The notes below the pieces were generated by a model, which did no database searches, was not told where the DNA came from, and worked only from the letters and a program-made list of their open reading frames with translations. 64,000 nucleotides of DNA from NCBI GenBank assembly GCA_017474385.1, contig JAFVHU010000046.1:1-64000 (forward strand), written 5' to 3'. This stretch comes from Afipia sp. GTDB taxonomy: Bacteria > Pseudomonadota > Alphaproteobacteria > Rhizobiales > Xanthobacteraceae. Shown here in pieces: positions 16,613-37,385 of the stretch. The position numbers and the translations under genes were made by a program. Each line of letters starts with the position of its first letter. The stretch's first letter is position 1.

Positions 16613-16826
16613 GTCGTCCCCGCGAAAGCGGGGACCCATTGCTCCTCGAAACGTAATTGATGTTGCGTCATCCTGAGGTGCGAGCCGCGCTTGCGGCGAG
16701 CCTCGAAGGATGCGCGGCCGCATGTCGCCGTCGTCCTTCGAGGCTCGCAAGTGCTCGCACCTCAGGATGACGGCGATCTGCGCTCTCGTTCGGTGGTTAT
16801 GGGTCCCCGCTTTCGCGGGGACGACA
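16613..16826. repeat. Paired REP-like palindromes (REPIN-type), copy 1
   Basis: A 26-base palindromic unit (GTCGTCCCCGCGAAAGC followed by its complement-like arm GGGGACCCA) at 16613-16638 recurs inverted at 16801-16826. The same inverted pair occurs again at 33.7-33.8 kb. Between the two units lies another inverted repeat, so the structure is nested. Confidence 0.8.
16666..16772. repeat. Inverted repeat of the CGTCATCCTGAGG family
   Basis: The arm CGTCATCCTGAGGTGCGAG is matched by its reverse complement at 16754-16772, with an inner pair CCTCGAAGGA / TCCTTCGAGG. A degenerate relative lies at 49856-49962. Such intergenic palindromes are common in this bacterial group. Confidence 0.8.
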
Positions 16827-18209: not shown

Positions 18210-18845
18210 TTACTTGTTGACCGGCGATTCCGGATCGAACAGCAGCGCGACGAGATCCTTGATCTGCTGCTCGCTGAGCACCTTGTTGGCCCCAAAGCGC
18301 GGCATGTTGGAGCATGCGAACACGGCCTGCGAGTCGTAGATCTTGGTGAAGGCGTTCTTGATCTCATCGGGCGCGTATTTGCGGTCCTTGCCGTAGTTGG
18401 TCAGGCTCGGGCCGAGCGTGCCGAAGGAGACTTCGGACTTTTCCAACTGATGGCAGGCGTAGCAGTTGCCGCCCGCGACCGTATCCGGCGGATCGGAGAA
18501 CTGTCCGCCGCGGCCGTTGTTGGCGACCTTGCGGCCTTCCTTCCAGTCGCCGAGGAATTTTCCATCGGCGGGATAGACAACCTTCGCAAGTTCGCGCTGC
18601 ACGATCTTGTCGGCTTCCGCCGACGGCACGTTGTTGTGATAGGCGTTGCAGGCCTTCAGCGTCTCGTCCGGAACGATGCGGTCCTGCCATTCTTGCGGCG
18701 CCTTGCCGAACGTCGCCTTCACATAGGCATCGACGATCGCCGGGTCCACGGCCTTCGGCGCGGTCTGCGCGGACGCCGCGAAGGGAAGGGCGGTGACAAT
18801 GCCTGCGGCGAGAGCCAGCGCTGCGATTTTCAAAGATGTTGTCAT
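18210..18845 (-). CDS. soxX: Sulfur-oxidising cytochrome c subunit SoxX
   Basis: 211 residues with signal peptide. One heme-binding motif CYACH (Cys128-His132) and an axial Met181 in CSNMPRFG are visible. Cys at about 66 and 178 lie outside the heme motif. SoxX with SoxA forms the periplasmic SoxXA complex that attaches thiosulfate to the SoxY carrier Cys. The ATG at 18845 has AGAGGAG upstream. It starts 14 bases after soxA ends and is clearly co-transcribed with it. Confidence 0.94.
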   Translation of the reverse strand: MTTSLKIAALALAAGIVTALPFAASAQTAPKAVDPAIVDAYVKATFGKAPQEWQDRIVPDETLKACNAYHNNVPSAEADKIVQRELAKVVYPADGKFLGDWKEGRKVANNGRGGQFSDPPDTVAGGNCYACHQLEKSEVSFGTLGPSLTNYGKDRKYAPDEIKNAFTKIYDSQAVFACSNMPRFGANKVLSEQQIKDLVALLFDPESPVNK

Positions 18846-18859
18846 GATGCGCTCCTCTC

Positions 18860-19684
18860 TCAACGCTTGATCGACGGGACGTTGATTTCGCCGCCCGCGG
18901 CCTGCTTCTGCAGGAACACGGTCAGCGCGGTGAGCGCGTCGGAGGCATATTCAGGCACCGGCCAGCGCTGCTGCCGGTAACAGTCCCACAGGCGATGCTG
19001 CATGGTGCGCAGCGCGCCCTGCGACACGCGATAGGTCGGCCAGCTCGCCATGGTTTCCTGCGGCAGCTTGCCGGGCTTCGACAGGTCCGGCAGGCCCTGA
19101 AGCCGGATGCGCTTGCCGTCCTCGGAGTGACAGGTGGCGCAGGAGAAATCGTTCACGCCGCCGCGCCGATAGAACAGCGCTTCGCCGACGGCGGCCATTT
19201 CCTGCTCTTTCGGATGGCTGAGCGGAACGTCGATCTTCATGCCGCTCGATTTGTTGGCGATGAAGGCAGTGAGATCTTCCATGTCGGACGCGCGGCCGGG
19301 GCCGGAAAACCGGCGGGCGATCACGTCCTTGGTGTCGAGGCCCTGAACATTCGTCATGCACCACAGCAGGCGCTGCTCAAGATCCATGACCTTGTCGGCA
19401 TCCTTGAAATAACGCGGCAGCTTGGCGAACGCGCCTTCCAGCTTGCCCGGGCCTTCGCCGAGATCGCAGGTCTCAAGCGAAACCTCCTTGGTCCCGCGCT
19501 TCTGGCCCCAGAGAACCTCGCCGCGATCGACCGCCAGAAAACCGGGGTTGGACATCGGATCGGAAATCATCGCGCGATAGCGCTCGATTTCCTTTTCGCT
19601 CGCGTCCTGTGCGTAAACGGGCGCGCTCGATGCGCACATCAAAATGGCAAAGGCGATTGCCGACCGAATCGTGGTCCGTCTCAT
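18860..19684 (-). CDS. soxA: Sulfur-oxidising cytochrome c subunit SoxA (single-heme form)
   Basis: 274 residues with signal peptide ending near VYAQ. One heme motif CATCH (Cys182-His186) is present. Cys235 in [11 protein letters not shown] is the conserved Cys that ligates the active-site heme as a persulfide. The N-terminal domain keeps Cys73 and Cys109 but lacks a CXXCH, so the first heme of diheme SoxA proteins is missing and these cysteines may form a disulfide, as in other monoheme SoxA proteins. First gene of the soxA-soxX-GlcG unit, divergent from soxYZBCD. Confidence 0.94.
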
Positions 19685-19761
19685 TCTTGGTCCTCCCCTC
19701 CGTCAGGCCGTCTGCGCGGCCCTTTCGGTTCCTTGTCCAGTTCAGCACTGTGAACCGAATA

Positions 19762-19923
19762 CTAGTGTCCCGAATCCGAAGTTCGTTTTACTTCGCAGCA
19801 CTTTTCGAACGAACTTCGGATTCGAAGGACACTAGATGTTATGAATTCCAGTGTGGTTTTGGTTCGCAAGTCCGCAAAAGTGTGCGCTGCAGAAAAATGC
19901 GGACTTGCGAACCACCACACTGG
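19762..19923. repeat. Composite double-hairpin repeat, copy 1 (in the sox divergent promoter region)
   Basis: Two adjacent imperfect hairpins: the first bounded by CTAGTGTCC / GGACACTAG with inner arms GAATCCGAAGTTCG, the second bounded by CCAGTGTGG / CCACACTGG with inner arms TTCGCAAGTCCGCA. The whole unit is repeated, reverse-complemented, at 47153-47319. It fills much of the 362-base gap between soxA and soxY. Downstream of it a TATAAT (19950-19955) may serve soxY, although no properly spaced -35 was found. No transposase is encoded, so it looks like a non-autonomous MITE/REPIN-like element. Confidence 0.8.
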
Positions 19924-20046
19924 TACATCTTTACATTCAAGAAAAAGAATATAATGATGTGAGCGGATCATGATAGATCAGGCTTGGCATCGTCAAGCGA
20001 TACTATCGTCAAGGGATGCAAAAGACTCCCGCAGGAGGAATCGTCG

Positions 20047-20511
20047 ATGAATTTGGAGTTCACTGAACCAACGCGCCGTGAAGCGCTGACGCTTGCGGCG
20101 ATCGCCGGGCTGACCGCTGTGCTCGCGCCGAAAATGGTGTTCGCGGATGAAGCCGCGGTCGCGGCCGAGATCAAGAAGCTTTACGGCGACAAGAAACTCG
20201 ACAGCGGCAAGATCAAGCTCGACGTCCCCGAGATCGCCGAGAACGGCCTCGTGGTGCCGGTCAATGTCGACGTCGAAAGCCCGATGACCGATTCGGACTA
20301 CGTGAAGGCGGTGCATGTGTTCGCCGACGGCAATCCGCTGCCCGGCGTCGTCACCTACAAGTTCACGCCGGCCTGCGGCAAGGCCTCCGCATCGACGCGC
20401 ATGCGCCTCGCGCAGACCCAGAACATCGTCTGCGTTGCGGAGATGTCGAACGGCAGCCTCTACATGACGAAAGCCAATGTGAAGGTCACCATCGGCGGCT
20501 GCGGCGGCTGA
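20047..20511 (+). CDS. soxY: Thiosulfate-oxidation carrier protein SoxY
   Basis: 154 residues. N-terminal signal of Tat type (PTRREALTLAAIAGL). The C-terminus ends in GGCGG with the carrier Cys at residue 152, on which sulfur intermediates are held during the Sox cycle. Start chosen by a consensus AGGAGGAA site. First gene of the soxYZBCD operon; soxZ follows after 42 bases. Confidence 0.96.
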   Translation: MNLEFTEPTRREALTLAAIAGLTAVLAPKMVFADEAAVAAEIKKLYGDKKLDSGKIKLDVPEIAENGLVVPVNVDVESPMTDSDYVKAVHVFADGNPLPGVVTYKFTPACGKASASTRMRLAQTQNIVCVAEMSNGSLYMTKANVKVTIGGCGG

Positions 20512-20553
20512 TCGGCGGCTCACAAGAACAACAATCAGGCGAGGAATTTTCCC

Positions 20554-20880
20554 ATGGCAGCACCCACCCCGCGCGTTCGCGTTCCAGCCACGGCGAAGGC
20601 CGGCGAACTGATCGAAATCAAGACCCTCATTTCGCACGAAATGGAATCGGGCCAGCGCAAGGACTCGGCCGGCAAGGTCGTGCCGCGCAAGATCATCAAC
20701 AAGTTCTCGGCGACGTTCAACGGCAAGCCGGTGTTCGAGGCGGACTGGAATCCGGCGATCTCGGCGAATCCGTATCAGTCGTTTTTCTACAAGGCGTCCG
20801 AGACCGGCGAGTTCACCTTCACCTGGAAGGATGACGACGGTTCGGAATACACGACCAAGAACAAGCTGACGGTCGGCTGA
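20554..20880 (+). CDS. soxZ: Thiosulfate-oxidation carrier partner SoxZ
   Basis: 108 residues with no signal peptide, as expected since SoxZ is exported in complex with Tat-targeted SoxY. Motifs typical of SoxZ are KAGELIEIKTLISHEMESGQ, FNGKPVFEADW and FTFTWKDDDG. It forms the SoxYZ heterodimer. A GAGGAA site precedes the ATG. Confidence 0.96.
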   Translation: MAAPTPRVRVPATAKAGELIEIKTLISHEMESGQRKDSAGKVVPRKIINKFSATFNGKPVFEADWNPAISANPYQSFFYKASETGEFTFTWKDDDGSEYTTKNKLTVG

Positions 20881-20959
20881 TTTTTTAGCGCGAGTTTCTC
20901 GCGCGAGCGCAAAGTTTCTAAAAAACATTCCCTTCGCGAGAAGGGATCAAGGGTGGACC

Positions 20960-22657
20960 ATGATATCGAGGCGGGATTTCCTGCAGGCGACCGCGGCTGC
21001 GTCCGCGCTGACGATCGGGAGCGGGCTCGGCTCGCTCGGACGGGTGGCCGCGCAGCAGCGCCTGACGCAGGCCGACATCACGCGGTTCGATCCGCTGGGC
21101 ACGGTGACCATCCTCTACGTCGCCGACAATCATGCGCAATTGATGCCGCTGTATTTCCGCGAGCCGTCGGTCAATCTCGGCGTCGGCGCGGACAAGGGTT
21201 TGCCGCCGCATCTCACCGACGCGGAGTTCCGGAAGTATTTCAACATCGCCGCCGGATCGGCGGATGCCTATGCGCTGACCGCCGATGATTTCGTCTCGCT
21301 GGCGCGCAACTACGGCCGCATGGGCGGCATGGACCGCGTTGCGACGCTGATCAATGCGGTGCGCGCCGAGCGCGGCGAGGACAAGGTGCTGCTGCTCGAC
21401 GGCGGCGACACCTGGCAGGGAAGCTGGACCTCGTTGCAGACCAAGGCGCAGGACATGGTCGATGTCATGTCGGCGCTGAAGGTCGACGCCATGGTCGGGC
21501 ATTGGGAATTCACCTACGGCGCTGAGCGCGTCAAGGAGATCGCCGAGAAGGCGCCGTTCGCATTTCTCGCGCAGAACATCCGCGACAACGAATGGCAGGA
21601 GCCAGTGTTCGAGGCGCGCAAGATGTTCGAGAAGGGCGGCGCGAAGATTGCCGTGATCGGACAGGCGCTGCCGCGCACGGCGGTCGCCAATCCGCGCTGG
21701 ATGTTCCCGAAATGGGAATTCGGTATCCGCGAAGAGGACATGCAGAAGCAGGTCGACGAGGCGCGCGCCGAGGGCGCGCAGATCGTCGTTCTTCTGTCGC
21801 ACGACGGCTTCGATGTCGACCGCAAGCTCGCGGGCCGGGTCAAGGGCCTCGACGTGATTCTGACCGCGCATACCCATGATGCGATGCCGGGTCTGGTACG
21901 TGTCGGCGATACGGTGCTGGTCGCGACCGGCTCGCATGGCAAGTTCGTCTCGCGTCTCGATATCGAGGTGAAGGACAAGAAGATCGCGGGTGTCCGCTTC
22001 AAGCTGATGCCGGTGTTCACCGACGCGATCAAGCCGGATGGCGCAATGACCGCGCTGGTCGAGAAGGTGAGAGCCCCGTTCGCCAAGGATCTGGCGCGTG
22101 TGGTGGGCAAAACCGACTCGCTCTTGTATCGCCGCGGTAATTTCAACGGCACCTTCGACGATCTGATCTGCGACGCGATGCTGTCGGAGCGGGATGCCGA
22201 GATCGCGTTGTCGCCAGGGTTCCGCTGGGGCGGCACGCTGATTCCGGACAGCCCGATCACATGGGAAGACGTGACCAACGCCACTGCGATCACCTATCCG
22301 AACTGCTATCGCAACCAGATGACCGGCGCGCAGCTCAAGGAAATCCTCGAAGACGTCGCCGACAACATCTTCCACCCCGATCCGTACTTCCAGGGCGGCG
22401 GCGACATGGTCCGCATCGGCGGCATGGGTTACTCGATCGATGTTTCGAAGCCGATGGGCTCGCGCATCTCCGAATTGACGCATCTGAAATCCGGCAAGCC
22501 GATCGAGGCCGCGAAGAGCTACAGCGTCGCGGGCTGGGCCAGTGTCAACGAAGGCACGCAGGGTCCGCCGATCTGGGACGTCGTGTCGGCGCACATCTCG
22601 AAGCGCGGCACCGTGAAGGTCGAACCGAACACCGCCGTCAAAGTCTCAGGCGTCTGA
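20960..22657 (+). CDS. soxB: Thiosulfohydrolase SoxB
   Basis: 565 residues. Tat signal MISRRDFLQATAAASAL. Metallophosphatase-like dimetal site: VADNHAQLMPLYFREPS, LLDGGDTWQGSWTS, AMVGHWEFTYG (the GNHE-box equivalent with a GHWE variant) and ILTAHTHDAMP. SoxB hydrolyses the sulfonate group from SoxY-bound thiosulfate, releasing sulfate in the periplasm. Length is normal. It sits between soxZ and soxC in the usual order. Confidence 0.96.
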   Translation: MISRRDFLQATAAASALTIGSGLGSLGRVAAQQRLTQADITRFDPLGTVTILYVADNHAQLMPLYFREPSVNLGVGADKGLPPHLTDAEFRKYFNIAAGSADAYALTADDFVSLARNYGRMGGMDRVATLINAVRAERGEDKVLLLDGGDTWQGSWTSLQTKAQDMVDVMSALKVDAMVGHWEFTYGAERVKEIAEKAPFAFLAQNIRDNEWQEPVFEARKMFEKGGAKIAVIGQALPRTAVANPRWMFPKWEFGIREEDMQKQVDEARAEGAQIVVLLSHDGFDVDRKLAGRVKGLDVILTAHTHDAMPGLVRVGDTVLVATGSHGKFVSRLDIEVKDKKIAGVRFKLMPVFTDAIKPDGAMTALVEKVRAPFAKDLARVVGKTDSLLYRRGNFNGTFDDLICDAMLSERDAEIALSPGFRWGGTLIPDSPITWEDVTNATAITYPNCYRNQMTGAQLKEILEDVADNIFHPDPYFQGGGDMVRIGGMGYSIDVSKPMGSRISELTHLKSGKPIEAAKSYSVAGWASVNEGTQGPPIWDVVSAHISKRGTVKVEPNTAVKVSGV

Positions 22658-22726
22658 TGCAGGACATTTCTATGCGCCATCACGCTCAACACATTCACGT
22701 ATCGAGATAAATAGAAAGGATGCCGC

Positions 22727-24004
22727 ATGAGTGACAAATCATCTGCGGATATTCTCAACCGCCGGAAATTCCTCGGCGCAGCGGGTCTCGCCGGTGCAGG
22801 CGCTGCACTCGGCGCGATGCCCGCGATGGCGGAAGGCGCCAAGCCTGATCCGTTGATCACGGACGTACAGGACTGGAATCGCTATCTCGGCGACGGCGTC
22901 GACAAGAAGCCTTACGGCGTGCCGTCGAAGTTCGAGAAGAACGTGATCCGCCGCGATGTGCCGTGGCTGACGGCGTCGCCGGAATCCTCCGTCAACTTCA
23001 CGCCGCTGCACGAACTCGACGGCATCATCACGCCGTCGGGCCTGTACTTCGAGCGGCATCACTCCGGCGTCGCGGAGATCAATCCCGCCGACCATCGTCT
23101 GATGATCAACGGCCTCGTGGACAAGCCTTTGGTGTTCACAATGGACGACATCAAGCGCATGCCGCGCATGAACAAGGTCTACTTCCTCGAATGCGCGGCG
23201 AATTCCGGCATGGAGTGGCGCGGCGCGCAGCTCAACGGCTGCCAGTTCACCCACGGCATGGTGCACAACGTGATGTACACCGGCGTCTCGCTGAAGACGA
23301 TGCTGGATGAAGCGGGCCTGAAGCCGAATGCGAAGTGGCTGATGCTCGAAGGCGCGGACGCCGCCGGCATGAACCGTTCGCTGCCGGTCGAGAAGGCGCT
23401 GAACGATTGCATGCTCGCGTTTGCGATGAACGGCGAGGCGCTGCGGCCCGAGCAGGGCTATCCGCTGCGCGCGGTGATCCCTGGCTGGGAAGGCAATCTC
23501 TGGGTGAAGTGGCTGCGCCGCATCGAGGTTGGCGACCAGCCGTGGCAGACCCGCGAGGAAACGTCGAAATACACCGACCTGCTGGCTGACGGCCGCTCGC
23601 GCAAGCACACCTTCATCATGGATGCGAAGTCGGTGGTGACCAATCCGTCGCCGCAGGCGCCGCTGAAACACAAGGGCCGCAACGTTCTGAGCGGGCTCGC
23701 ATGGTCCGGCCGCGGCACGGTCAAGCGCGTCGACGTCACGATGGATGGCGGCCGCAACTGGCAGACCGCGCGCATCGACGGGCCGGTGCTGGATAAGTCG
23801 CTGGTGCGTTTCTATGTCGACTTCGACTGGAACGGTCAGGAGTTGATGATCCAGTCCCGCGCGATGGATTCGACCGGCTACGTGCAGCCGACCAAGGACG
23901 AACTGCGCAAGGTGCGCGGCGTCAATTCGATCTACCACAACAACGGCATTCAGACCTGGCTGGTGCGTTCAGGCGGGGAGACTGAAAATGTCGAGATTGG
24001 CTAA
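22727..24004 (+). CDS. soxC: Sulfur dehydrogenase molybdenum subunit SoxC
   Basis: 425 residues. Tat signal (NRRKFLGAAGLAGAG). Molybdopterin-binding oxidoreductase fold of the sulfite-oxidase family; the molybdenum-ligating Cys is residue 156 in VYFLECAANSGMEWRGAQ. The C-terminal dimerisation domain includes LAWSGRGTVKRVDVTMDGG. With SoxD it oxidises the SoxY-bound sulfane sulfur, giving full oxidation to sulfate without sulfur globules. It overlaps soxD by 17 bases. Confidence 0.95.
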   Translation: MSDKSSADILNRRKFLGAAGLAGAGAALGAMPAMAEGAKPDPLITDVQDWNRYLGDGVDKKPYGVPSKFEKNVIRRDVPWLTASPESSVNFTPLHELDGIITPSGLYFERHHSGVAEINPADHRLMINGLVDKPLVFTMDDIKRMPRMNKVYFLECAANSGMEWRGAQLNGCQFTHGMVHNVMYTGVSLKTMLDEAGLKPNAKWLMLEGADAAGMNRSLPVEKALNDCMLAFAMNGEALRPEQGYPLRAVIPGWEGNLWVKWLRRIEVGDQPWQTREETSKYTDLLADGRSRKHTFIMDAKSVVTNPSPQAPLKHKGRNVLSGLAWSGRGTVKRVDVTMDGGRNWQTARIDGPVLDKSLVRFYVDFDWNGQELMIQSRAMDSTGYVQPTKDELRKVRGVNSIYHNNGIQTWLVRSGGETENVEIG

Positions 24005-24692
24005 GCTCGCCGCATTCGCTTTGTTGTGTGGCGCGGCGCTCGCAGTTGCGAACTCGCCAATCGGAGCGCAGCAAATTGCCGCACAGGCCGCCGTGAAGAC
24101 CTCGCCTAAGCTCGGGCTTGGACGTCCGGCGCTGCCGGACGAAATCAAGGCGTGGGACACCGCCGTGCGGCCGGACGGCAAGGGCCTTCCGCCGGGCAAG
24201 GGCACGGTGAAGCAGGGAGACGTGATTTTTCAGGCGCAGTGCGCGTCCTGTCATGGCGAATTCGGCGAGGGCGTAGGGCGCTGGCCGGTGCTCGCCGGGG
24301 GCGCGGGGACGCTGAAGGCGGATCGTCCGGACAAGACCATCGGTTCGTTCTGGCCGGACCTGTCCACGGTGTTCGATTACATCCAGCGCGCCATGCCGTA
24401 TGGCAACGCCCGGTCGCTCTCGAATGATGACGTTTATGCTCTCACAGCCTACCTTCTCAGCATGAATGACGTCATCAAGAACGAAAATTTCGAATTGAAT
24501 GACAAGAACTTTACGTCCATCAAGATGCCGAATGCGTCAGCCTTTTATGACGACGATCGCGAGACCGCTGAAAAGCAGTTCTGGAAAAAAGACCCGTGCA
24601 TGAAGGATTGCCGCAGCGCACCGAAGGTGACCGGCCGGGCGATTTCGGTCGATGTGACACCCGACAGCAAGGCCGGACCGAAGGTCGATTGA
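23988..24692 (+). CDS. soxD: Sulfur dehydrogenase cytochrome subunit SoxD (single-heme form)
   Basis: 234 residues with signal peptide. A single heme motif CASCH (Cys85-His89) and AMPYGNARSLSNDDVYALTAY, typical for SoxD, are present. The second cytochrome domain of the longer diheme SoxD proteins is absent; instead the C-terminus has two Cys in DPCMKDCRSAPK. It carries electrons from SoxC to soluble cytochrome c. The stop codon overlaps the start of the following cytochrome gene (TGATG). Confidence 0.94.
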   Translation: MSRLAKLAAFALLCGAALAVANSPIGAQQIAAQAAVKTSPKLGLGRPALPDEIKAWDTAVRPDGKGLPPGKGTVKQGDVIFQAQCASCHGEFGEGVGRWPVLAGGAGTLKADRPDKTIGSFWPDLSTVFDYIQRAMPYGNARSLSNDDVYALTAYLLSMNDVIKNENFELNDKNFTSIKMPNASAFYDDDRETAEKQFWKKDPCMKDCRSAPKVTGRAISVDVTPDSKAGPKVD

Positions 24693-25003
24693 TGAGGCAG
24701 CCGTCGGCGAAAGCGCTGCTTTTCGTTCTGACGGCGGGGCTTGCGCTGGACAATGCCGCTGCTGCCGGTGACCGCGAACTGGGACAATATCTGTCGTCGG
24801 AATGCGTGACCTGCCATCGTGCCTCGGGCCAGAACGCGCAGGGCATTCCGAAGATCAATGGATGGCCGGAAGACCAGTTCGTCGCGGTGATGAACGCCTA
24901 CAAGGACAAGCAGCGGGACAATCCGGTGATGCAAACCATCGCAGGGCGTCTCGGGACTGATGACATCGCGGCTCTGGCGGCTTATTTCAGTATGCAGAAA
25001 TAA
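24692..25003 (+). CDS. Small exported class I cytochrome c (SoxE-like)
   Basis: 103 residues. Signal peptide (LLFVLTAGLALDNAAA) then a single heme motif CVTCH in SSECVTCHRASGQ; a Met in NPVMQTIAGRLG is the likely distal ligand. It is coupled to soxD by a TGATG overlap and lies before soxF, so it could be the electron acceptor of SoxCD or the cytochrome partner of the SoxF flavoprotein. Naming as SoxE is by position only. Confidence 0.88.
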   Translation: MRQPSAKALLFVLTAGLALDNAAAAGDRELGQYLSSECVTCHRASGQNAQGIPKINGWPEDQFVAVMNAYKDKQRDNPVMQTIAGRLGTDDIAALAAYFSMQK

Positions 25004-25025
25004 CGTTTCAACATCGGAGGTTGTC

Positions 25026-25544
25026 ATGACAGACCAAAAGGGTTCGGCGACGCGGCGCAGCGTCATCATCGGAGCCGCCGGCGGTCTGGTTGCGGCAACG
25101 GCGCAGGCCGCGCCGCAGTCTGTGTCCATGGCGGACCTGAAGAAGGAAGGCGATGTCGCCTGCCTCTATCATTGCGACTACGGCGACAACGCGCGCTTCG
25201 CCCAGACGCTGAACAACATCTCCAATCATTATTCGGTCTACGGCTCCGATCCGTTCGGGCTGCAACTGGTCATCGTCGCGCACAGCGTTTCGGTGAAGTA
25301 TTTCCTGAGCACACTGGAAGGTACGCCCTGGAAGGACGAGACCATCGATCCGGCGCTGTTCGAGCGCGTCACCGCGCTCGCCAAGAACGGCCTCAAGGTC
25401 CTCCTGTGCGAGATCACCTTCCAACGGCTGAAGCTCGACAAGGCCAAGGTGAAGGACGCGCCGTTCATCAGCTTCGTGCCGTCGGGTGTCGCCACGGTCG
25501 CGGCGCTGCAATCGAAAGGCTTTGCGTACCTCAAGGTCGGCTGA
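25026..25544 (+). CDS. Exported DsrE-family protein (second copy)
   Basis: 172 residues. The N-terminus SATRRSVIIGAAGGLVAATA is a Tat-like signal. The body resembles DsrE-type proteins: VACLYHCDYGDNARFAQTL, LQLVIVAHSVSVKYFL, LAKNGLKVLLCEITFQRL. Three Cys residues (two in the N-terminal CLYHC pair and one in LLCEIT) could carry sulfur. A consensus GGAGG site precedes the ATG. It lies between the small cytochrome and soxF. Periplasmic sulfur relay is inferred. Confidence 0.8.
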   Translation: MTDQKGSATRRSVIIGAAGGLVAATAQAAPQSVSMADLKKEGDVACLYHCDYGDNARFAQTLNNISNHYSVYGSDPFGLQLVIVAHSVSVKYFLSTLEGTPWKDETIDPALFERVTALAKNGLKVLLCEITFQRLKLDKAKVKDAPFISFVPSGVATVAALQSKGFAYLKVG

Positions 25545-25596
25545 TCCGGCCGGCCTGCTGAATCGGACTTTTCATAAAACATACTGGAGAGACATC

Positions 25597-26871
25597 ATGA
25601 GCATCAGTCGTCGGCAGTTGATTTCAGGATCGGCATCGTTCGCGGGCGTCATGATGTTCGGTGCGCCCGCGGTACTCGGGCAGGCCAAGCCGCGTGTCGT
25701 GGTAATCGGCGGTGGCGCGGGCGGCGTCACCGCGGCGAAATACATCGCCAAGGACAGCGGCGGCGCGATTGCCGTCACGCTGATTGAGCCCAATGCGAAG
25801 TACCAGACCTGCTTCCACAGCAATCTCTATCTCGGCGGCGTGCGGGACTATCCTTCCATCACCCACGGCTACGGCGCGGTGAAGAAGCACGGCGTCACTG
25901 TCGTTGCAGACCGGGCGATGAAGATTGATCGCGACAAGAAAGAAGTCATTCTCGCCAACGGCAAGAAGCTGCCCTACGACCGCCTCGTGGTCTCGCCGGG
26001 CATCGACCTCAAATACGATTCCGTTCCGGGCTGGTCGCAGGCCGCGGAAGAAAAGATGCCGCACGCCTGGAAGCCGGGCGCGCAGACGCTGCTCTTGAAG
26101 AAACGCCTCGATGCGGTGCCCAACGGCGGCGTCATTGTGATGATCGCTCCGCCCAATCCCTACCGCTGCCCGCCGGGTCCCTACGAGCGCGTCTCGATGA
26201 TGGCTCATGCGCTGAAGAAGGCGCGCAAGGACCGCTCCAAGATCATCGTGATCGATCCGAAGGAAAGCTTCTCCAAGCAGGCGCTGTTTCAGGAGGGCTG
26301 GGAGAAGCACTACAAGGGCATGGTCGAATGGCTCGGCCCCAAGGTCCATGATGGATTGAAGTCGGTCGATCCCAAGACCAACACGGTGGTAACCGGGTTC
26401 GAGACCTACAAGAACGCGGCGCTGGTCAATGTCATTCCGGCGCAGATGGCCGGGGCGATCGCGCGGGATGCCGGCCTCGCCAACACCACCGGTTACTGCG
26501 CCATCGATCCCACCAATATGAAGTCGTCGGCCGATCCCAATATCTACATTCTCGGAGATGCTTGCATCGCCGGCGACATGCCGAAGTCCGCGTTCTCCGC
26601 CAACAGCCAGGCCAAGGTCGCCGCCATGATGATCCGGGGCGAACTGGTGTCGGCGCGCACATTCCCGGCGCGCTACACCAATACCTGCTGGAGCATGATC
26701 GACACTGACGATTGCGTGAAGATCGGCGGCGCCTACGAGCCCAAGGACGGCAAGATCACCGCATCGTCGACGTTCGTCTCGAAGACCGGCGAGGATGCCG
26801 AGTTGCGCAAACAAACGCAGGTGGAAAACATGGGCTGGTATGCCGGAATTACAGCCGATATGTTTTCCTGA
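25597..26871 (+). CDS. soxF: Sulfide dehydrogenase flavoprotein SoxF (FccB-type)
   Basis: 424 residues. Tat signal SRRQLISGSASFAG; FAD-binding VVVIGGGAGGVTAAKYI at about residues 34-50. The two redox Cys expected in flavocytochrome c sulfide dehydrogenases are visible in YRCPPGPYERVSM and YTNTCWSMID. The segment IYILGDACIAGDMPKSAFSA is the second FAD motif. It oxidises sulfide (or recovers stalled SoxY) and passes electrons to a cytochrome c, probably one of the adjacent ones. A GGAGAG site precedes the ATG. Confidence 0.93.
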   Translation: MSISRRQLISGSASFAGVMMFGAPAVLGQAKPRVVVIGGGAGGVTAAKYIAKDSGGAIAVTLIEPNAKYQTCFHSNLYLGGVRDYPSITHGYGAVKKHGVTVVADRAMKIDRDKKEVILANGKKLPYDRLVVSPGIDLKYDSVPGWSQAAEEKMPHAWKPGAQTLLLKKRLDAVPNGGVIVMIAPPNPYRCPPGPYERVSMMAHALKKARKDRSKIIVIDPKESFSKQALFQEGWEKHYKGMVEWLGPKVHDGLKSVDPKTNTVVTGFETYKNAALVNVIPAQMAGAIARDAGLANTTGYCAIDPTNMKSSADPNIYILGDACIAGDMPKSAFSANSQAKVAAMMIRGELVSARTFPARYTNTCWSMIDTDDCVKIGGAYEPKDGKITASSTFVSKTGEDAELRKQTQVENMGWYAGITADMFS

Positions 26872-27518: not shown

Positions 27519-29858
27519 CTACGCCCCGCGCGCCTGCCTTGCCGCCTCGACCATGTTGGTCAGCGCCGACCTGACCTCGGGCCAGCCACGCGTCTTGAGC
27601 CCGCAATCCGGATTGATCCAGATCTGCTCCGGCGACAGGTTGCGGCGCGCCTTGGCGATCAGCTCCATCATTTCCGGCACCTCCGGCACGCGCGGCGAGT
27701 GGATGTCGTAGACGCCGGGTCCGATTTCGTTCGGATACTTGTAGGTCACGAAGGCGTCGAGCAACTCCATCTTCGAGCGTGAGGTCTCGATCGAGATCAC
27801 GTCGGCGTCCATCGCGCCGATGGCATCGATGATGTCGTTGAACTCGGCGTAGCACATGTGGGTGTGGATCTGGGTTTCGTCCTTCACGCCGGCTTGCGAA
27901 ATCTTGAAGCACTCCACCGCCCAGTCGAGATAGGCTTTCCAGTCGCCCTTGCGCAGCGGCAGGCCCTCGCGCAACGCCGGCTCGTCGATCTGGATCACGC
28001 CGATGCCGGCCTTTTCGAGATCGGTCACCTCGTCGCGCAGCGCGAACGCGATCTGGCGGCAGACCTGATCGCGGCCGAGATCGTCGCGCACGAATGACCA
28101 TTGCAGCATGGTGACCGGGCCGGTGAGCATGCCCTTCATCGGCAGCGTGGTGAGCGACTGCGCGTAGGACGACCAGCCCACCGTCATGGGCTTCGGACGC
28201 GAGACGTCGCCGAAGATGATCGGCGGGCGGACGTAGCGCGAGCCGTAACTCTGCACCCAGCCGTGCTTGGTGAAGGCATAGCCCGACAGTTGCTCGCCGA
28301 AATACTGCACCATGTCGTTGCGCTCGAATTCGCCGTGCACCAGCACGTCGATGCCGATGTCCTCCTGCCAGCGCACGGCTTTCTCGGTTTCCGTGCGCAG
28401 AAACGCATCGTAGTCGGTATCGCTGAGCAGGCCCTTGGCGTGGGCGGCACGCGCCTTGCGCACCTGCTCGGTCTGCGGGAACGAGCCGATGGTTGTGGTG
28501 GGGAACGAGGGCAGGCCGAGCACCTTGCTCTGGAGCTTCTGCCGCGCGCTGAACGGGCTCGTGCGTTGCGACAGAGCGGGCGAGGTATCAGCCGCGCGGG
28601 ACGTCACCGCCGGATTGTGAATTTTCGGTGAGGAGACGCGCTTTTTCGCGGCATCATCGGAGGCCGCAAGCTCATTCTTGATGGCATCACGTCCCAACGA
28701 CAGCCCGCGGCTGAGCGCCGCCAGTTCGCCCATCTTCTGCACCGAGAAGGCAAGCCAGCTTTCCAGATCCGCATCGAGATCAGTTTCCTGGTTGAGATCA
28801 ATCGGCACGTGCAGCATCGAGCACGACGGCGCAATCTGGATCCGGTCCACGCCGCTGCGCGCGGCGATGGCCTTTCCGGCGAGATCGAGAACCTTTGTAA
28901 GGTCGGCGCGCCAGATGTTGCGGCCGTCGATCACACCGAGCGACAGCACGAGATCGGCTGGCACCTTCTTCAGCACCGTTTCGATCTGGCCTTTGCCGCG
29001 CACCAGATCGAGATGCACGCCGGCGACAGGCTGGCTCAAGGCCAGGCCCTCGTTATCGCCCAGCGCGCCGAAATAGCTTGCGAGCATGATCTTGATCTTC
29101 GGAGCCTTCTGCGCGAACTCGGCAAAGGTCTTGATAATCGCGGTCTTTTCCTCCGCGTCGAGATCAAGCACCAGACACGGCTCGTCGATCTGCACCCAGT
29201 CCGCGCCTTCGGCGGCGAGCTTGTTGAGCACCTCGATGTAGACCGGCAGCAGCTTCGGCAACAGCGACAGCCGGTTCTCGCCCTTGCCGAGCTTGAGGAA
29301 GGTGACGGGGCCGACCAGCACCGGCCGGGTCTGGATGCCGAGCGCTTTTGCCTCGCGGTATTCGTCGATCGCCTTGGTGGAGGCGAGGGCGAAGGTCTGA
29401 TCCCTGGCGAATTCCGGCACCATGTAGTGATAGTTGGTGTCGAACCACTTGGTCATTTCCTGCGCGGGCACGCCATGGCCATGGCTATGGCCATGGGTGC
29501 AGCCGTCGTCGTGGCCCACATCTTTCTGGCTGCCGCGCGCCATCGCGAAATAGGTCTCGAACGACACCGGCCCGCCGGTCCAGCCGTAGATTTTCGGAAT
29601 CGCGCCGACCATGGCGCTGGTGTCGAGCACCTGGTCGTAGAGCGAGAAATCGTTCGACGGGATCACGGTGACGCCGAGATCGCGCTGACGCGTCCAGTTG
29701 TCGGCGCGGATTTTCGCAGCGGCCTCGCGCAGCGCGGCCTCATCGATCTTGCCGGACCAGAATTTCTCAAGCGCGATTTTCAGTTCGCGGCGTGGGCCGA
29801 TACGCGGCACGCCGAGCGTGGCGACAGGAATGGAAGCAGTGGAAACAGAACCCGACAT
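27519..29858 (-). CDS. metE: Cobalamin-independent methionine synthase MetE
   Basis: 779 residues. It transfers a methyl group from methyltetrahydropteroyltriglutamate to homocysteine without B12. Typical segments are [19 protein letters not shown] at the N-terminus, [24 protein letters not shown], and the zinc/homocysteine site with [12 protein letters not shown] and [11 protein letters not shown]. An unusual His-rich stretch, [13 protein letters not shown], is inserted in the N-terminal half. The ATG at 29858 is preferred over earlier frames that run into the riboswitch leader. A cobalamin riboswitch upstream implies repression when B12 is available. Confidence 0.96.
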
Positions 29859-29969
29859 TGCAAAACCCCGTGATGTTGGGGCAGGGCCGGACATGCGCGA
29901 ACAACAGAGACGGCCGGGCCGTTCTCTCGCAAGCGACACACCGGGGCATCCCGCCCGTGGACGTTATGT

Positions 29970-30163
29970 GATCGCGGCAGGTCTCCTGGCTCACGGGTCG
30001 ATGCCAGTGTCCGGCCTTCCCGAGGCTTTCGCCTCAGTGGCATCGATGGACGAGGCTCACCGTTTACAGTTGCGGGGGCAGCTCCGGAATTGCGCGATCC
30101 AACTGGACCCCGCGCACCGCATTCCCTCTTGGCTCCGGACCACCGATCCGCAGAACCGCGATG
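29970..30163 (-). promoter_or_regulatory. Cobalamin riboswitch upstream of metE
   Basis: Read on the minus strand: a P1 stem (TCGCGG with CCGCGA), the conserved core GCTGCCCCCGCAACTGTAA, GCCACTG, GGGAAGG, and the B12 box GAGCCAGGAGACCTGCCG at 29975-29992. These are the hallmark conserved elements of the cobalamin riboswitch. The metE start lies about 115 bases downstream. A CCCC...GGGG hairpin just before the metE ATG, with the GGGG near the ribosome-binding position, suggests control of translation start. Confidence 0.95.
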
Positions 30164-30450
30164 GTCAAGTTATGGGAAGCGGCTTGAGCCGGGTCAAAGG
30201 GAAAGCTTCCCACTGCGATGACGAGGAGCGACGGGGCGAGGTGCGTGGGCAGAAATGTGATGGCGTCGCCGCCGCTGATTCTTGTCCGTGCGTCTCGGCG
30301 GAGGCGTCACGAAACGCCTTGGCCTCTGAAACAGAATCGACGCACTCTGCTCGCGTGCTGAGAAACGCCGATTTCTCGGAGCTTCGGGGATAACGGGGAC
30401 GCTTGTTAATCTCTTGTTGACTCTTTCGGCCTTATATCACCACATGTAGA

Positions 30451-30645
30451 TGTCACGGTCCGCTGGATGTCAAAATCTAGTGGCTAAGAGGGAAGCCGGT
30501 GAACTGCGCTCTGATGCAGCAATTCCGGCGCTGCCCCCGCAACTGTAAGCAGTGAGTTGATTCCGAACGAAGTCACTGATGCCTGATCCGCATCGGGAAG
30601 ACCGGACTCAGCGACGACCTGCGAGCCAGGAGACCTGCCGCGACA
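30451..30645 (+). promoter_or_regulatory. Cobalamin riboswitch upstream of nrdA
   Basis: Plus-strand elements: P1 stem TGTCACGG with CCGCGACA, GGGAAGCCGGTGAA, CGCTGCCCCCGCAACTGTAA, GTCACTG, CGGGAAG and the B12 box GAGCCAGGAGACCTGCCG at 30623-30640. Downstream, a CCCCC tract and a GGGG near the nrdA start could form a helix that hides the ribosome-binding site. The 16-base block at 30652-30667 is identical to one at 29950-29965 in the metE leader. It implies B12-dependent repression of the nrdAB ribonucleotide reductase. Confidence 0.95.
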
Positions 30646-30765
30646 CCAAAGAACGTCCACGGGCGGGGTGTCCGGCGGTCGCGTGCTTCGGTGCGTCCGC
30701 GCGCCGCGACAACGCGCCTTTCGGCCCAAGCCCCCAAAAAATTGCAACACGCACGGGGTCTGCCG

Positions 30766-33684
30766 ATGTCACTCTCTCTTGAACGCGAAGCCGCCAAATC
30801 CGCTCCTCTCATTCAGTTGCGTTCCGAGTCACTGGCCGTCCCTGCCGCCACACCGCCGTTGCAGGTCATTCGCCGCAACGGCACGGTCTCGCCGTTCGAC
30901 GCGAGCAAGATCTCGATCGCGATGACCAAGGCGTTCCTCGCGGTCGAAGGGCACACCGCAGCGGCGTCGCGCCGTATTCACGAGGTGATCGAGCAACTGA
31001 CCAACGAAGTGGTGAACGCGCTGACCCGCCGGATCGGCGAGGGACGCACCTTCCATATCGAGGATGTGCAGGATCAGGTCGAACTGGCGCTGATGCGCAG
31101 CGAACACCACAAGGTCGCCCGCGCCTATGTGCTCTACCGCGATGAACGTCAGCGCCAGCGTGCCGAAGAGGCGGCCGCCAAACCGGTCAAGACTTCGTCC
31201 GAGCCGCAGCTGCATGTGACATTGGGCAACGGCACGCGCGTGCCGCTCGACGTCGATCGCCTGACGCTGATCATTCAGGAAGCTTGCGCAAATCTCGACG
31301 GTGTCGATGCCGCGCCGGTTCTGGCCGAGACCCGCCGCAATCTCTATGACGGCATCAGCCAGGACGAACTGGCGCTCGCGGGCATCATGGCAGCGCGCAC
31401 GCTCGTGGAGCAGGAGCCAAACTACGCTTATGTCAGCGCGCGCCTGCTGCTCGACAAGCTGCGCACCGAAGTGCTCTCGTTTGTCCACGGCACGCCGATC
31501 AACGCCACACAGGCGGATATGACGGTACGCTACGTCGAGTATTTCCCGGTCTATGTCAAAAAGGGCATCGAAGCCGAACTGCTCGATCCTGAACTGGCGC
31601 GTTATGACCTGAAGCGGATTGCAGCGGCGCTGAAGCCGGAGCGCGATCTCTCGTTCCAGTTTCTCGGTTTGCAGACGCTGTACGATCGCTATTTCCTGCA
31701 CGAGAACGGCAACCGGATCGAGCTGCCGCAGGCGTTCTTCATGCGCGTCGCCATGGGTCTTGCGATCCGTGAGATCGACCGCGAAGCGCGGGCCATCGAG
31801 TTCTACAACCTGCTGTCGTCGTTCGACTTCATGGCGTCGACGCCGACGCTGTTCAACTCCGGCACGCTGCGTCCTCAATTGTCGTCCTGCTTCCTGACCA
31901 CGGTGGCCGACGATCTCGACGGCATCTTCAAGTCGGTGAAGGACAATGCGCTGCTGGCGAAATATTCCGGCGGTCTCGGCAACGACTGGACCCGCGTGCG
32001 CGGCCTCGGCGCCCACATCAAGGGCACCAACGGCGAAAGCCAGGGCGTGGTGCCGTTCCTGAAAGTCGCCAACGACACCGCGATTGCGGTCAATCAGGGC
32101 GGCAAGCGCAAGGGCGCGGTCTGCGCCTATCTCGAGACCTGGCATGTCGACATCGAGGAATTCCTCGATCTTCGCAAGAACACCGGCGACGACCGCCGCC
32201 GCACCCACGACATGAACACCGCGAACTGGGTGCCGGATCTGTTCATGCAGCGCGTCGAAGCGGACGGCGAATGGACGCTGTTCTCGCCCGACGAGACGCC
32301 GGACCTGCACGATCTTTACGGCAAGGCGTTCGCTGCGCGTTACGCGTTCTATGAGGACAAGGCCGCACGCGGCGAGATGCGTGTGTTCAAGAAGCTGCGC
32401 GCCACAGACCTGTGGCGCCGCATGCTGACCATGCTGTTCGAGACCGGACATCCGTGGATCACCTTCAAGGACCCCTGCAACCTGCGCTCGCCGCAGCAGC
32501 ATGTCGGTGTCATCCACTCATCGAATCTCTGCACCGAGATCACGCTGAACACGTCGGACGACGAGGTTGCGGTGTGCAATCTCGGCTCAGTGAACCTGCT
32601 CAACCATGTGGGCGAGGGCGGCATCGATCATGCACGGCTGAAGCGGACGATTTCGACCGCGATGCGGATGCTCGACAATGTCATCGACATCAATTTCTAC
32701 ACCATTCCGGAAGCACGCCGCTCGAACCTGCAACATCGTCCGGTCGGTCTTGGCCTGATGGGCTTCCAGGACGCGCTGCATGCGCTGCGGATTCCGATGG
32801 CGTCGGACGCCGCTGTCGCTTTCGCCGACACCAGCATGGAAGCGATTTCGTTCCACGCCATTACGGCGTCGGTCGATCTTGCCGCCGAGCGCGGACAGTA
32901 TCCGTCGTTCAAGGGGTCGCTGTGGAGCCGGGGCATCCTGCCGATCGACTCCATCGAGCTTCTGGCCGATGCACGCGGCGGTCTTGACGTCGATTGGTCG
33001 GCAACGCTGGACTGGACGGCGCTGCGCGCGCGGGTGCAGTCGGTCGGCATGCGCAACTCAAACGTGATGGCGATTGCGCCGACCGCGACCATCTCCAACA
33101 TCTGCGGCGTGGCGCAGTCGATCGAGCCCGCCTACCAGAACCTTTATGTCAAATCGAACATGTCCGGCGACTTCACCGAAGTGAACGAATTTCTCGTTCG
33201 CGACCTGAAGGCGCGCGGCCTGTGGGACGAGGTGATGGTCTCCGACCTGAAATACTTCGACGGCAGCGTCGGCTCGATCGATCGCATCCCTGACGATCTG
33301 AAGCTGCTCTACGCCACGGCGTTCGAGATCGACAGCACGTGGCTGATCGAAGCGGCGGCGCGGCGGCAGAAGTGGATCGATCAGGCGCAGTCGCTCAATC
33401 TCTACATCGCCAATCCGTCGGGCAAGAAGCTCGATCAACTGTATCGGCTGGCGTGGGCGCGCGGCCTGAAGACCACCTATTACCTGCGCTCGCGCAGCGC
33501 CACCCATGTGGAGAAATCGACGCTGAAGGGCACCGACGGAAAGCTCAATGCGGTGTCGTCATCGTCGCTGGCTTCGATGCCGGTGAACAAGCCGATCGTC
33601 GTGCCGCAGGCCTCGACCGCGCCGGATCTGTCCGATGCGGTGGCGTGCTCGATCGACAATCCCGATTGTGAGGCGTGCCAGTAG
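30766..33684 (+). CDS. nrdA: Ribonucleoside-diphosphate reductase alpha subunit NrdA (class I)
   Basis: 972 residues. Two ATP-cone domains are visible at the N-terminus (beginning near VIRRNGTVSPFDASKISIAM and near VTLGNGTRVPLDVDRLTLI). The catalytic centre includes Cys375 (QLSSCFL) and Cys604 (VAVCNLGS) as the redox pair and NLCTE with Asn587, Cys589 and Glu591. The C-terminal CEAC pair (968/971) is the thioredoxin-accessible Cys pair. ATG 30766 has a GGGG site and follows the riboswitch; longer frames would begin inside the leader. It reduces ribonucleotides together with the nrdB product. Confidence 0.95.
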   Translation: MSLSLEREAAKSAPLIQLRSESLAVPAATPPLQVIRRNGTVSPFDASKISIAMTKAFLAVEGHTAAASRRIHEVIEQLTNEVVNALTRRIGEGRTFHIEDVQDQVELALMRSEHHKVARAYVLYRDERQRQRAEEAAAKPVKTSSEPQLHVTLGNGTRVPLDVDRLTLIIQEACANLDGVDAAPVLAETRRNLYDGISQDELALAGIMAARTLVEQEPNYAYVSARLLLDKLRTEVLSFVHGTPINATQADMTVRYVEYFPVYVKKGIEAELLDPELARYDLKRIAAALKPERDLSFQFLGLQTLYDRYFLHENGNRIELPQAFFMRVAMGLAIREIDREARAIEFYNLLSSFDFMASTPTLFNSGTLRPQLSSCFLTTVADDLDGIFKSVKDNALLAKYSGGLGNDWTRVRGLGAHIKGTNGESQGVVPFLKVANDTAIAVNQGGKRKGAVCAYLETWHVDIEEFLDLRKNTGDDRRRTHDMNTANWVPDLFMQRVEADGEWTLFSPDETPDLHDLYGKAFAARYAFYEDKAARGEMRVFKKLRATDLWRRMLTMLFETGHPWITFKDPCNLRSPQQHVGVIHSSNLCTEITLNTSDDEVAVCNLGSVNLLNHVGEGGIDHARLKRTISTAMRMLDNVIDINFYTIPEARRSNLQHRPVGLGLMGFQDALHALRIPMASDAAVAFADTSMEAISFHAITASVDLAAERGQYPSFKGSLWSRGILPIDSIELLADARGGLDVDWSATLDWTALRARVQSVGMRNSNVMAIAPTATISNICGVAQSIEPAYQNLYVKSNMSGDFTEVNEFLVRDLKARGLWDEVMVSDLKYFDGSVGSIDRIPDDLKLLYATAFEIDSTWLIEAAARRQKWIDQAQSLNLYIANPSGKKLDQLYRLAWARGLKTTYYLRSRSATHVEKSTLKGTDGKLNAVSSSSLASMPVNKPIVVPQASTAPDLSDAVACSIDNPDCEACQ

Positions 33685-33690
33685 TACCGT

Positions 33691-33820
33691 GTCGTCCCCG
33701 CGAAAGCGGGGACCCACACTTCTAATGTGGGTCTGAGTTCAACGAGCCCGCGCCGCCAACACACTTAACTTCAAGTCGATGTTTGCAAAGCACTGGGTCC
33801 CCGCTTTCGCGGGGACGACA
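33691..33820. repeat. Paired REP-like palindromes (REPIN-type), copy 2, between nrdA and nrdB
   Basis: The 26-base unit at 33691-33716 and its inverted copy at 33795-33820 match the pair at 16.6-16.8 kb. The spacer between them is unrelated to the spacer in copy 1. It lies inside the nrdA-nrdB gap, so the two genes are transcribed either through a hairpin or separately. Confidence 0.85.
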
Positions 33821-33844: not shown

Positions 33845-34993
33845 ATGCTCGACTGGTCCGAAACCTCACCGAACAAAGCCATCAATTCGCTTCCGCCCAT
33901 CCTCACCGGCCAATCTGCCGTAATCGATCAGACCGGCCTTGATCCAACAGGGCTCGGAACCATCGACCGCAAGGGCGGCCGCGTGTCGGTCGACGACAAG
34001 GCGATGATCAACTGCCGCGCCGACGTCAATCAGTTGCTGCCGTTGAAATACAAGTGGGCATGGGAGAAGTATCTCGCCGGCTGCAACAACCACTGGATGC
34101 CGACCGAAGTCTCGATGCAGGCCGACATCGCGCTGTGGAAATCACGCGATGGCCTGACCGACGACGAGCGCCGCGCCATCAAGCGCAATCTGGGTTTCTT
34201 TGCAGCTTCGGAAAGCCTCGTCGCCAACAACATCGTGCTGGCGATCTATCGCCATCTGACCAACCCGGAATGCCGCCAGTACCTGCTGCGGCAGGCATTC
34301 GAGGAGGCGGTGCACACCCACACCTTCCAGTACATCGTCGAAAGCCTCGGCCTTGATGAGGGCGAACTGTTCAACATGTACCGTGAGGTGCCATCGATTA
34401 CCGACAAGGCGGCGTGGGCGCTGAAGCACACGCAGAATCTCGACAACCCGGATTTCAAGACCGGCACTCCGGAGTCGGATCAGGCGTTCCTGCGTGATCT
34501 GGTCGCGTTCTACGTGATCTTCGAGGGGATGTGGTTCTACACCGGCTTCGCGCAGATCCTGTCGCTCGGCCGCCGCAACAAGATGGTCGGCATCGCCGAG
34601 CAGTACCAGTACATCCTGCGCGATGAGTCCATTCACCTGAATTTCGGCATCGACGTCATCAACCAGATCAAGATGGAAAATCCGCATCTGTGGACGCCAA
34701 AGTTCCAGGACGAGGTGCGCGGCATGATCCGCGAGGCGGCCGAACTGGAAGCGGCCTACAGCCGGGACACCATGCCGCGCGGATTCCTCGGCCTCAACGC
34801 GGCGCTGTGCGAGCAGTACATGCACTTCATCGCCAACCGCCGCTGCGCCCAGCTTGGACTGACCCGCGTGTTCGACGAGACCGACAATCCGTTCCCGTGG
34901 ATGTCGGAGGCGATGGACCTGAAGAAGGAGAAGAATTTCTTCGAGACCCGCGTGATCGAGTACCAGAACGGCGGCGCGCTGAGTTGGGAATGA
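33845..34993 (+). CDS. nrdB: Ribonucleoside-diphosphate reductase beta subunit NrdB, class Ic type
   Basis: 382 residues. The diiron-carboxylate fold is clear: [43 protein letters not shown], and the C-terminal [14 protein letters not shown]. At the radical position Tyr is replaced by Phe161 (three residues after the His157 ligand plus one), and the first metal ligand is Glu88 instead of Asp. Both are diagnostic of class Ic enzymes (Chlamydia trachomatis type), which use a Mn/Fe cofactor instead of a tyrosyl radical. The overall sequence also resembles the chlamydial protein. It belongs with nrdA under the same riboswitch. Confidence 0.94.
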
Positions 34994-37260: not shown

Positions 37261-37385
37261 TCCCCAACCTCGCCCCGTTCTTACGGGGAGAGGTCGGATT
37301 GCAAAGCAATCCGGGTGAGGGGCTTTCTTAGCGAGTAAAAATGCCCCTCACCCCACCCCTCCCCCCGCAAGCGGGGAGAGGGAGC
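37261..37385. repeat. Intergenic palindromes of the CTCTCCCCG family, copy 1
   Basis: Hairpins such as CCCCGTTCTTACGGGGAG and CCCCGCAAGCGGGG plus GGATTGCAAAGCAATCC, arranged as a nested inverted structure. Related copies are at 46034-46173 and 55800-55852. It fills the gap between the convergent chemoreceptor and MarR genes. Confidence 0.75.

Follow-up and report, generated by a model that had tools for sequence, protein, structure and literature searches.

Cobalamin riboswitches precede a class Ic-type ribonucleotide reductase locus and a divergent metE in an Afipia genome

Why should an alphaproteobacterium encode a ribonucleotide reductase (RNR) whose R2 subunit carries phenylalanine in the place of the radical tyrosine, and under which conditions would it call on such an enzyme? 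We addressed this question at the nrdAB locus of Afipia sp., in a stretch of 64,000 nucleotides (contig JAFVHU010000046.1, positions 1 to 64,000; hereafter the window), for which a sequence-only reading had proposed a class Ic enzyme of chlamydial appearance, acquired or kept as a B12-independent reductase.

Class and residues of the R2 subunit

The assignment rests on one gene and two of its codons:

33845..34993, + strand: nrdB, class Ic-type R2 subunit, 382 aa (intact frame, profile matches, alignment)
34211..34213, + strand: codon of E123, the first metal ligand, in AASESLV (aligned with C. trachomatis E89; Asp in 72 of 72 rows with Y161)
34325..34327, + strand: codon of F161 (aligned with C. 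trachomatis F127; Tyr in class Ia/Ib)

The frame is real and intact, as originally called, and its 382-residue product matches PF00268 (315 bits) and NCBIfam NF005550 (681 bits; cut-off 309); it is the only PF00268 protein that the search of the assembled genome turned up. Based on alignment with C. trachomatis NrdB and with Tyr-type NrdB proteins, we identified the metal ligands as E123, E154, H157, E227, E261 and H264, which align in that order with C. trachomatis E89, E120, H123, E193, E227 and H230, while W84, Y256 and Y373 align with W51, Y222 and Y338; the ligand and relay roles of the C. trachomatis residues are those that we presume for them. F161 falls on C. trachomatis F127, which bears out the proposed replacement of the radical tyrosine. 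The claim that the first metal ligand is glutamate rather than aspartate stood in its substance, the residue being aligned on C. trachomatis E89, and failed in its position, since this ligand had been placed at E88 (in WMPTEV) and the alignment puts it at E123. We rejected E88 as a ligand: all 33 F-type rows (our own among them) and all 52 Y-type rows have it, and because it is common to both it discriminates nothing. The class Ic conclusion survives this error, since E123, which does hold that place, is a glutamate as well.

According to the available part of one account (PMC8463856), a Phe/Glu pairing denotes class Ic, Tyr/Asp class Ia/Ib and Tyr/Glu class Id. By this rule, and with the ligand corrected, NrdB is class Ic-type by sequence: it has F161 and E123, and thus Phe/Glu rather than the Tyr/Glu of class Id, it keeps the other ligands and the C-terminal relay residue Y373, and its NrdA partner is present. 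The pairing is strict among 167 aligned NrdB rows (our own, the two solved structures from Saccharopolyspora erythraea and C. trachomatis, and 164 relatives), which are not 167 independent genomes because some are the same genome (L097/L218, L043/L160 and L053/L170): F161 occurs with E123 in 95 (E/F rows, among them our own and both solved structures), Y161 with D123 in 72 (D/Y rows), and there are no mixed rows. The main F-type is also marked by T87 and T160, where the Y-type has Q87 and A/S160. A Mn/Fe cofactor is predicted from these residues only. Mn would occupy site 1 of NrdB and Fe site 2, and reaction with O2 would yield a Mn(IV)/Fe(III) centre that, in place of a tyrosyl radical, would start radical transfer to NrdA.

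The control region between nrdA and metE

Upstream of nrdB lie its partner gene, a divergent metE and, between these two, a pair of riboswitches:

27519..29858, - strand: metE, B12-independent methionine synthase, 779 aa from the likely ATG (TIGR01371, 1085 bits; cut-off 930)
29959..30175, - strand: second, divergent cobalamin riboswitch, before metE (Rfam RF00174, 124.4 bits)
30439..30656, + strand: cobalamin riboswitch aptamer before nrdA (Rfam RF00174, 131.2 bits)
30661..30670, + strand: conserved element GGGCGGGGTG, directly 3' of the aptamer, proposed L13 partner of the C-rich L5 loop of the aptamer
30731..30758, + strand: CCCCC...GGGG just 5' of the nrdA start, proposed ribosome-site sequestor
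30766..33684, + strand: nrdA, catalytic subunit, 972 aa from the likely ATG, with two N-terminal ATP-cone stretches

NrdA matches NCBIfam NF005544 with 1734 bits, and its two ATP-cone stretches agree with the multiple cones noted before. We chose the ATG at 30766 as its start, in agreement with the aligned leaders; the mechanical open reading frame starts at GTG 30691. Control of nrdB is probably shared with nrdA, although the 160-nt gap between the two genes, which carries a palindromic repeat, speaks against this. This 16-base repeat, CCCCGCGAAAGCGGGG, occurs in facing pairs at 33696-33711 (+) / 33799-33814 (-) and at 16618-16633 (+) / 16805-16820 (-), spaced by about 90 and 170 bases, with a fifth, imperfect copy at 37361; the pair between nrdA and nrdB could affect their co-expression. 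On its other side, metE adjoins a thiosulfate-oxidation cluster (18210-26871) with SoxX, SoxA, SoxB and SoxC by NCBIfam; the product of 25486-26871 scores against a sulfide quinone reductase model, but falls far short of the cut-off.

Both aptamers score above the RF00174 gathering score of 31.5 bits, and they are the only RF00174 matches reported for the assembled genome, which is 84% complete and for which 150 of 234 first-look candidates were scored. The 3' end of the nrdA riboswitch lies 110 nt upstream of nrdA. When we aligned 20 leaders (18 of 26 from the order, together with our own nrdA and metE leaders), GGGCGGG[GA]TG directly followed the aptamer in all 20, against 0.01 expected in shuffles, and CCCC...GGGG stood just upstream of the start codon in 19, against 0.66 expected; both patterns were picked after the alignment had been seen, the leaders are related by descent, and the elements (in short form CCCCC/GGGG and GGGCGGGG) hardly vary among them. 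The loop names L5 and L13 and the kissing-loop idea are assumptions that we apply to these leaders. With B12 bound, the GGGCGGGGTG element would pair with the L5 loop of the aptamer and leave the C-run to cover the G-rich ribosome site; with no B12, the same element would compete for the C-run, and the ribosome site would open. The direction of the switch, off with B12, is predicted by analogy with known riboswitches, and control of the leaders is presumably translational rather than transcriptional. No terminator-like site was found on the + strand of the nrdA leader (30657-30766). One such site lies in the metE leader (29922-29910; 7 in the region against 4.6 expected), so that control of metE could be transcriptional. 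A pattern scan of the region found no promoter-like sites, and an NrdR-box consensus pattern gave no matches.

The B12-dependent counterparts of both enzymes are encoded elsewhere in the genome, NrdJ at C117 (2355 bits; cut-off 1737) and MetH at C57 (438 bits). Together with the riboswitches before nrdA and metE, they strongly support the suggestion that the reductase is kept as a B12-independent enzyme. We conclude that the locus is probably a B12-independence module, in which B12-switched class Ic-type nrdAB and metE back up NrdJ and MetH. When adenosylcobalamin is plentiful, the leaders would fold shut and the cell would use NrdJ, a class II RNR, and MetH; under B12 shortage, the leaders would open, and MetE and NrdAB would take over. 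The bacterium is possibly an importer rather than a maker of B12, given that CobS (PF02654) had no match in the genome and that only the two RF00174 matches were reported; the absence of CobS is no proof of B12 auxotrophy, because the assembly is 84% complete and the alphaproteobacterial control, Caulobacter, was also negative.

Relatives of NrdB and the distribution of the riboswitch

The impression that the protein looks chlamydial was overstated. NrdB is 59% identical to the C. trachomatis protein, against 87% to the R2 subunit of S. erythraea (PDB 6y2n), its closest solved relative, and 60-70% to the Tyr-type (D/Y) enzymes. Among named genomes, an Afipia MAG (L149) comes closest, with an NrdB of 96% identity; its metE is likewise divergent, and both genes are preceded by a B12-box pattern (pattern match only). 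NrdB matches were found in 33 of 249 genomes of the order (E <= 1e-20) and in 62 of 398 genomes of a phylum sample (E <= 1e-90); of the 33, 27 (own included) carry the close form, and the other 6 match solely through a distant form of about 30%. Horizontal acquisition is compatible with this patchy distribution (27/249 genomes of the order) and with the 87% identity to an actinobacterial protein.

For trees, we culled the 167 rows to 130 (at 96% identity) and to 52 (at 87% identity), with our own copy (L064) removed. When the trait columns were left out, the alphaproteobacterial and actinobacterial E/F rows, together with L095, Halothiobacillus and Guyparkeria, formed one 25-row group with support of 100/99; our own row lies inside it and C. 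trachomatis outside, on a long branch of unsure placement. Without C. trachomatis, the E/F rows occupy one side of a branch (support 80/82); with it, the E/F pair of L206 and L211 is placed among gammaproteobacteria of the D/Y type, with 3 changes. A single E/F clade is not rejected (p-AU 0.29). The pair (L206, labelled Endozoicomonas, and L211, labelled Salinisphaera) comprises gammaproteobacterial NrdB proteins that are 91% alike and carry E123 and F161 on a D/Y-type Q87 background, and it possibly represents a second origin of the class Ic site, as far as these sequences indicate.

Within the order, a riboswitch in the same sense lies 70-135 nt before the projected nrdA start in 26 of the 27 other loci (the exception being G064). 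At the other E/F loci scanned, Rfam found the riboswitch in L092-L094 (3/3), in two MAGs labelled Acidobacteria (L171 and L176; 2/2) and at 19 of 28 actinobacterial E/F loci, the misses being 7 Amycolatopsis and 2 Nocardiopsis. None was found at L150, L175 and L177 (0/3), nor at L203, L205, L206 and L211, labelled as gammaproteobacterial genera, and L095 and L096, which belong to the same phylum as Afipia and a different class (0/6 together). Among the Rfam-scanned loci, the riboswitch thus precedes 51 of 70 E/F loci (own included) versus 0 of 39 D/Y loci (p 2e-15, kinship not corrected), these 39 being part of the D/Y set, with L097 and L218 as one contig and L207 without an nrdA match in the locus. 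Riboswitch control of E/F enzymes is not universal. At other named alphaproteobacterial loci, a B12-box pattern (pattern only) stands before nrdA in 21 of 23; in the two misses, L156 and L162, the upstream DNA is truncated, and both were left out of the riboswitch counts. The simple B12-box pattern missed the actinobacterial riboswitches that Rfam found. One genome of the order (G243) has two class Ic nrdAB copies (L057 and L062), each with a cobalamin riboswitch of its own.

Using PF08267 at E < 1e-100, a limit that we set ourselves (33 genomes pass the family cut-off), we found MetE in 30 of 249 genomes of the order, namely 21 of 27 with class Ic and 9 of 222 others (p 2e-18, kinship not corrected), which leaves 6 of the 27 class Ic genomes without metE at this limit. 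The gene was matched in the fetched stretch of 13 of the 27 other loci of the order, and in 5 of the 27 (L038, L041, L045, L046 and L060) it stands head to head with nrdA, with one riboswitch per gene.

The presence of NrdJ beside class Ic is not specific, because NrdJ is nearly universal in the order: it scores above cut-off in 222 of 249 genomes, and all 26 genomes of close relatives match its model at E = 0. In the 28 actinobacterial E/F genomes, a class II RNR match above cut-off was found in 26; of the other two, L194 has the riboswitch and no class II match, and L190 has class II pieces below cut-off only. Five further E/F genomes (L150, L175, L203, L206 and L211) have neither a class II match above cut-off nor the riboswitch, and 11, including all 9 actinobacterial misses, have NrdJ and no riboswitch. 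Across 37 named E/F genomes, the association between riboswitch and NrdJ is only suggestive (p 0.066, L190 counted as present). Named D/Y genomes have NrdJ in 9 of 13; six of the 13 were scanned with Rfam, none of which has a riboswitch before nrdA (0/6) and 4 of which have NrdJ; the riboswitch therefore cannot be predicted from NrdJ alone. As an observation in its own right, the class II matches in the L190 genome (G633), which also has a class Ic locus led by a riboswitch, are split into several pieces over two contigs and represent either a decayed NrdJ or assembly errors.

Known systems, alternatives and meaning

Control of B12-independent RNR and methionine synthase by B12 is already known. 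The available part of PMC545781 refers to this mode of control as described before for the B12-independent isozymes of both enzymes, and predicts that B12, through B12 elements, represses nrdDG in those delta-proteobacteria that have NrdJ; this resembles our locus in setting a B12-independent RNR under predicted B12 repression beside NrdJ, and differs in that NrdDG is not a class I RNR. The accessible text of PMC2211319 places metE under B12 elements. A further precedent is S. coelicolor nrdABS, a B12 riboswitch-controlled, B12-independent RNR that backs up NrdJ (Borovok 2006, as cited in the available part of PMC4991794); it shares with our locus the B12 riboswitch before the nrdA of a back-up enzyme, and unlike ours it is described as class Ia. 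That ordinary Streptomyces nrdABS might be class Ic was not supported: of 61 genomes sampled from the genus to which S. nanshensis belongs, 58 matched solely through a distant NrdB (30-35% identity) and 2 not at all, and the 29 distant loci that were read, out of the 58, are all D/Y, a result at the level of the genus rather than for S. coelicolor itself. The only close E/F NrdB in this sample is that of S. nanshensis (1/61 genomes; L181); it is of the class Ic type, and divergent cobalamin riboswitches lie ahead of its nrdA.

Of the solved enzymes, S. erythraea R2 shares the E/F pairing and ligands, and a cobalamin riboswitch precedes nrdA at the Saccharopolyspora loci L180 and L197; unlike ours, it is actinobacterial and, in the part of PMC7467353 available, known from its crystal structure. 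The class Ic R2 of C. trachomatis (PDB 1syy, 4d8f) is like NrdB in its six ligands, the Phe, W51, Y222 and Y338, and unlike it in overall sequence and in its uncertain place in the tree. In the literature searched, no report linking class Ic to a B12 riboswitch was found among the matches listed, in the portions of text that these covered. The main 2003 paper on the B12 regulon may already include some such nrdAB leaders.

Three other explanations bear on what the enzyme is and what it is for. That NrdB might be an R2-like ligand-binding oxidase (R2lox), also a Mn/Fe user according to the accessible part of PMC6399176, is extremely improbable: its weak matches to NCBIfam R2lox models (31-54 bits) are far below cut-offs of 194 and up, the RNR model is exceeded at 681 versus 309, nrdA adjoins, and the C-terminal Y373 is kept. 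An Fe/Fe or Mn/Mn cofactor despite the Phe/Glu residues is unlikely. The metal is not fixed by residues, and the available part of the account of the S. erythraea 6y2n structure gives no answer as to the metal; against this, NrdB agrees with the Mn/Fe enzyme of C. trachomatis in all six ligands and in F161, W84, Y256 and Y373. We also regard it as quite unlikely that the class Ic-type RNR serves mainly in oxidative or iron stress, with the riboswitch only as fine-tuning. Such a role, which for oxidative stress is the view of the sequence-only reading, would fit class Ic cofactors, which lack a tyrosyl radical and can be activated by H2O2 (PMC8463856, in the part available), and S. coelicolor nrdABS is also raised in oxidative stress, as the available text of PMC4991794 has it; however, among the sites sought (riboswitch and NrdR-box), the control elements found at our locus are B12 riboswitches, and the divergent neighbour of nrdA is metE.

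In the parts of reviews available to us, class Ic RNR is discussed from C. trachomatis. The Phe/Glu type described here occurs in numerous genomes that bear the names of free-living genera, where B12 riboswitches precede it and NrdJ accompanies it, and suggests a different reason for class Ic, namely that cobalt chemistry is being replaced. The locus also points to further class Ic enzymes worth study, and the 95 E/F and 72 D/Y rows, with no mixed form, make a natural set for the site change from Tyr/Asp to Phe/Glu. Returning to the B12-independence module, we tentatively put forward, as a reading with somewhat less than an even chance of being right, that the Phe/Glu RNR of this clade moves between Alphaproteobacteria and Actinobacteria in a B12-independence cassette (riboswitch and nrdAB, in many genomes also a riboswitch-led metE), and that its Mn/Fe chemistry mainly frees DNA synthesis from cobalt and B12 rather than from iron or superoxide. 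If this is true, cobalamin scarcity would trigger a metal swap, from Co to Mn/Fe for dNTPs and from MetH to MetE for methionine, which in this bacterium would be run from one bidirectional control region.
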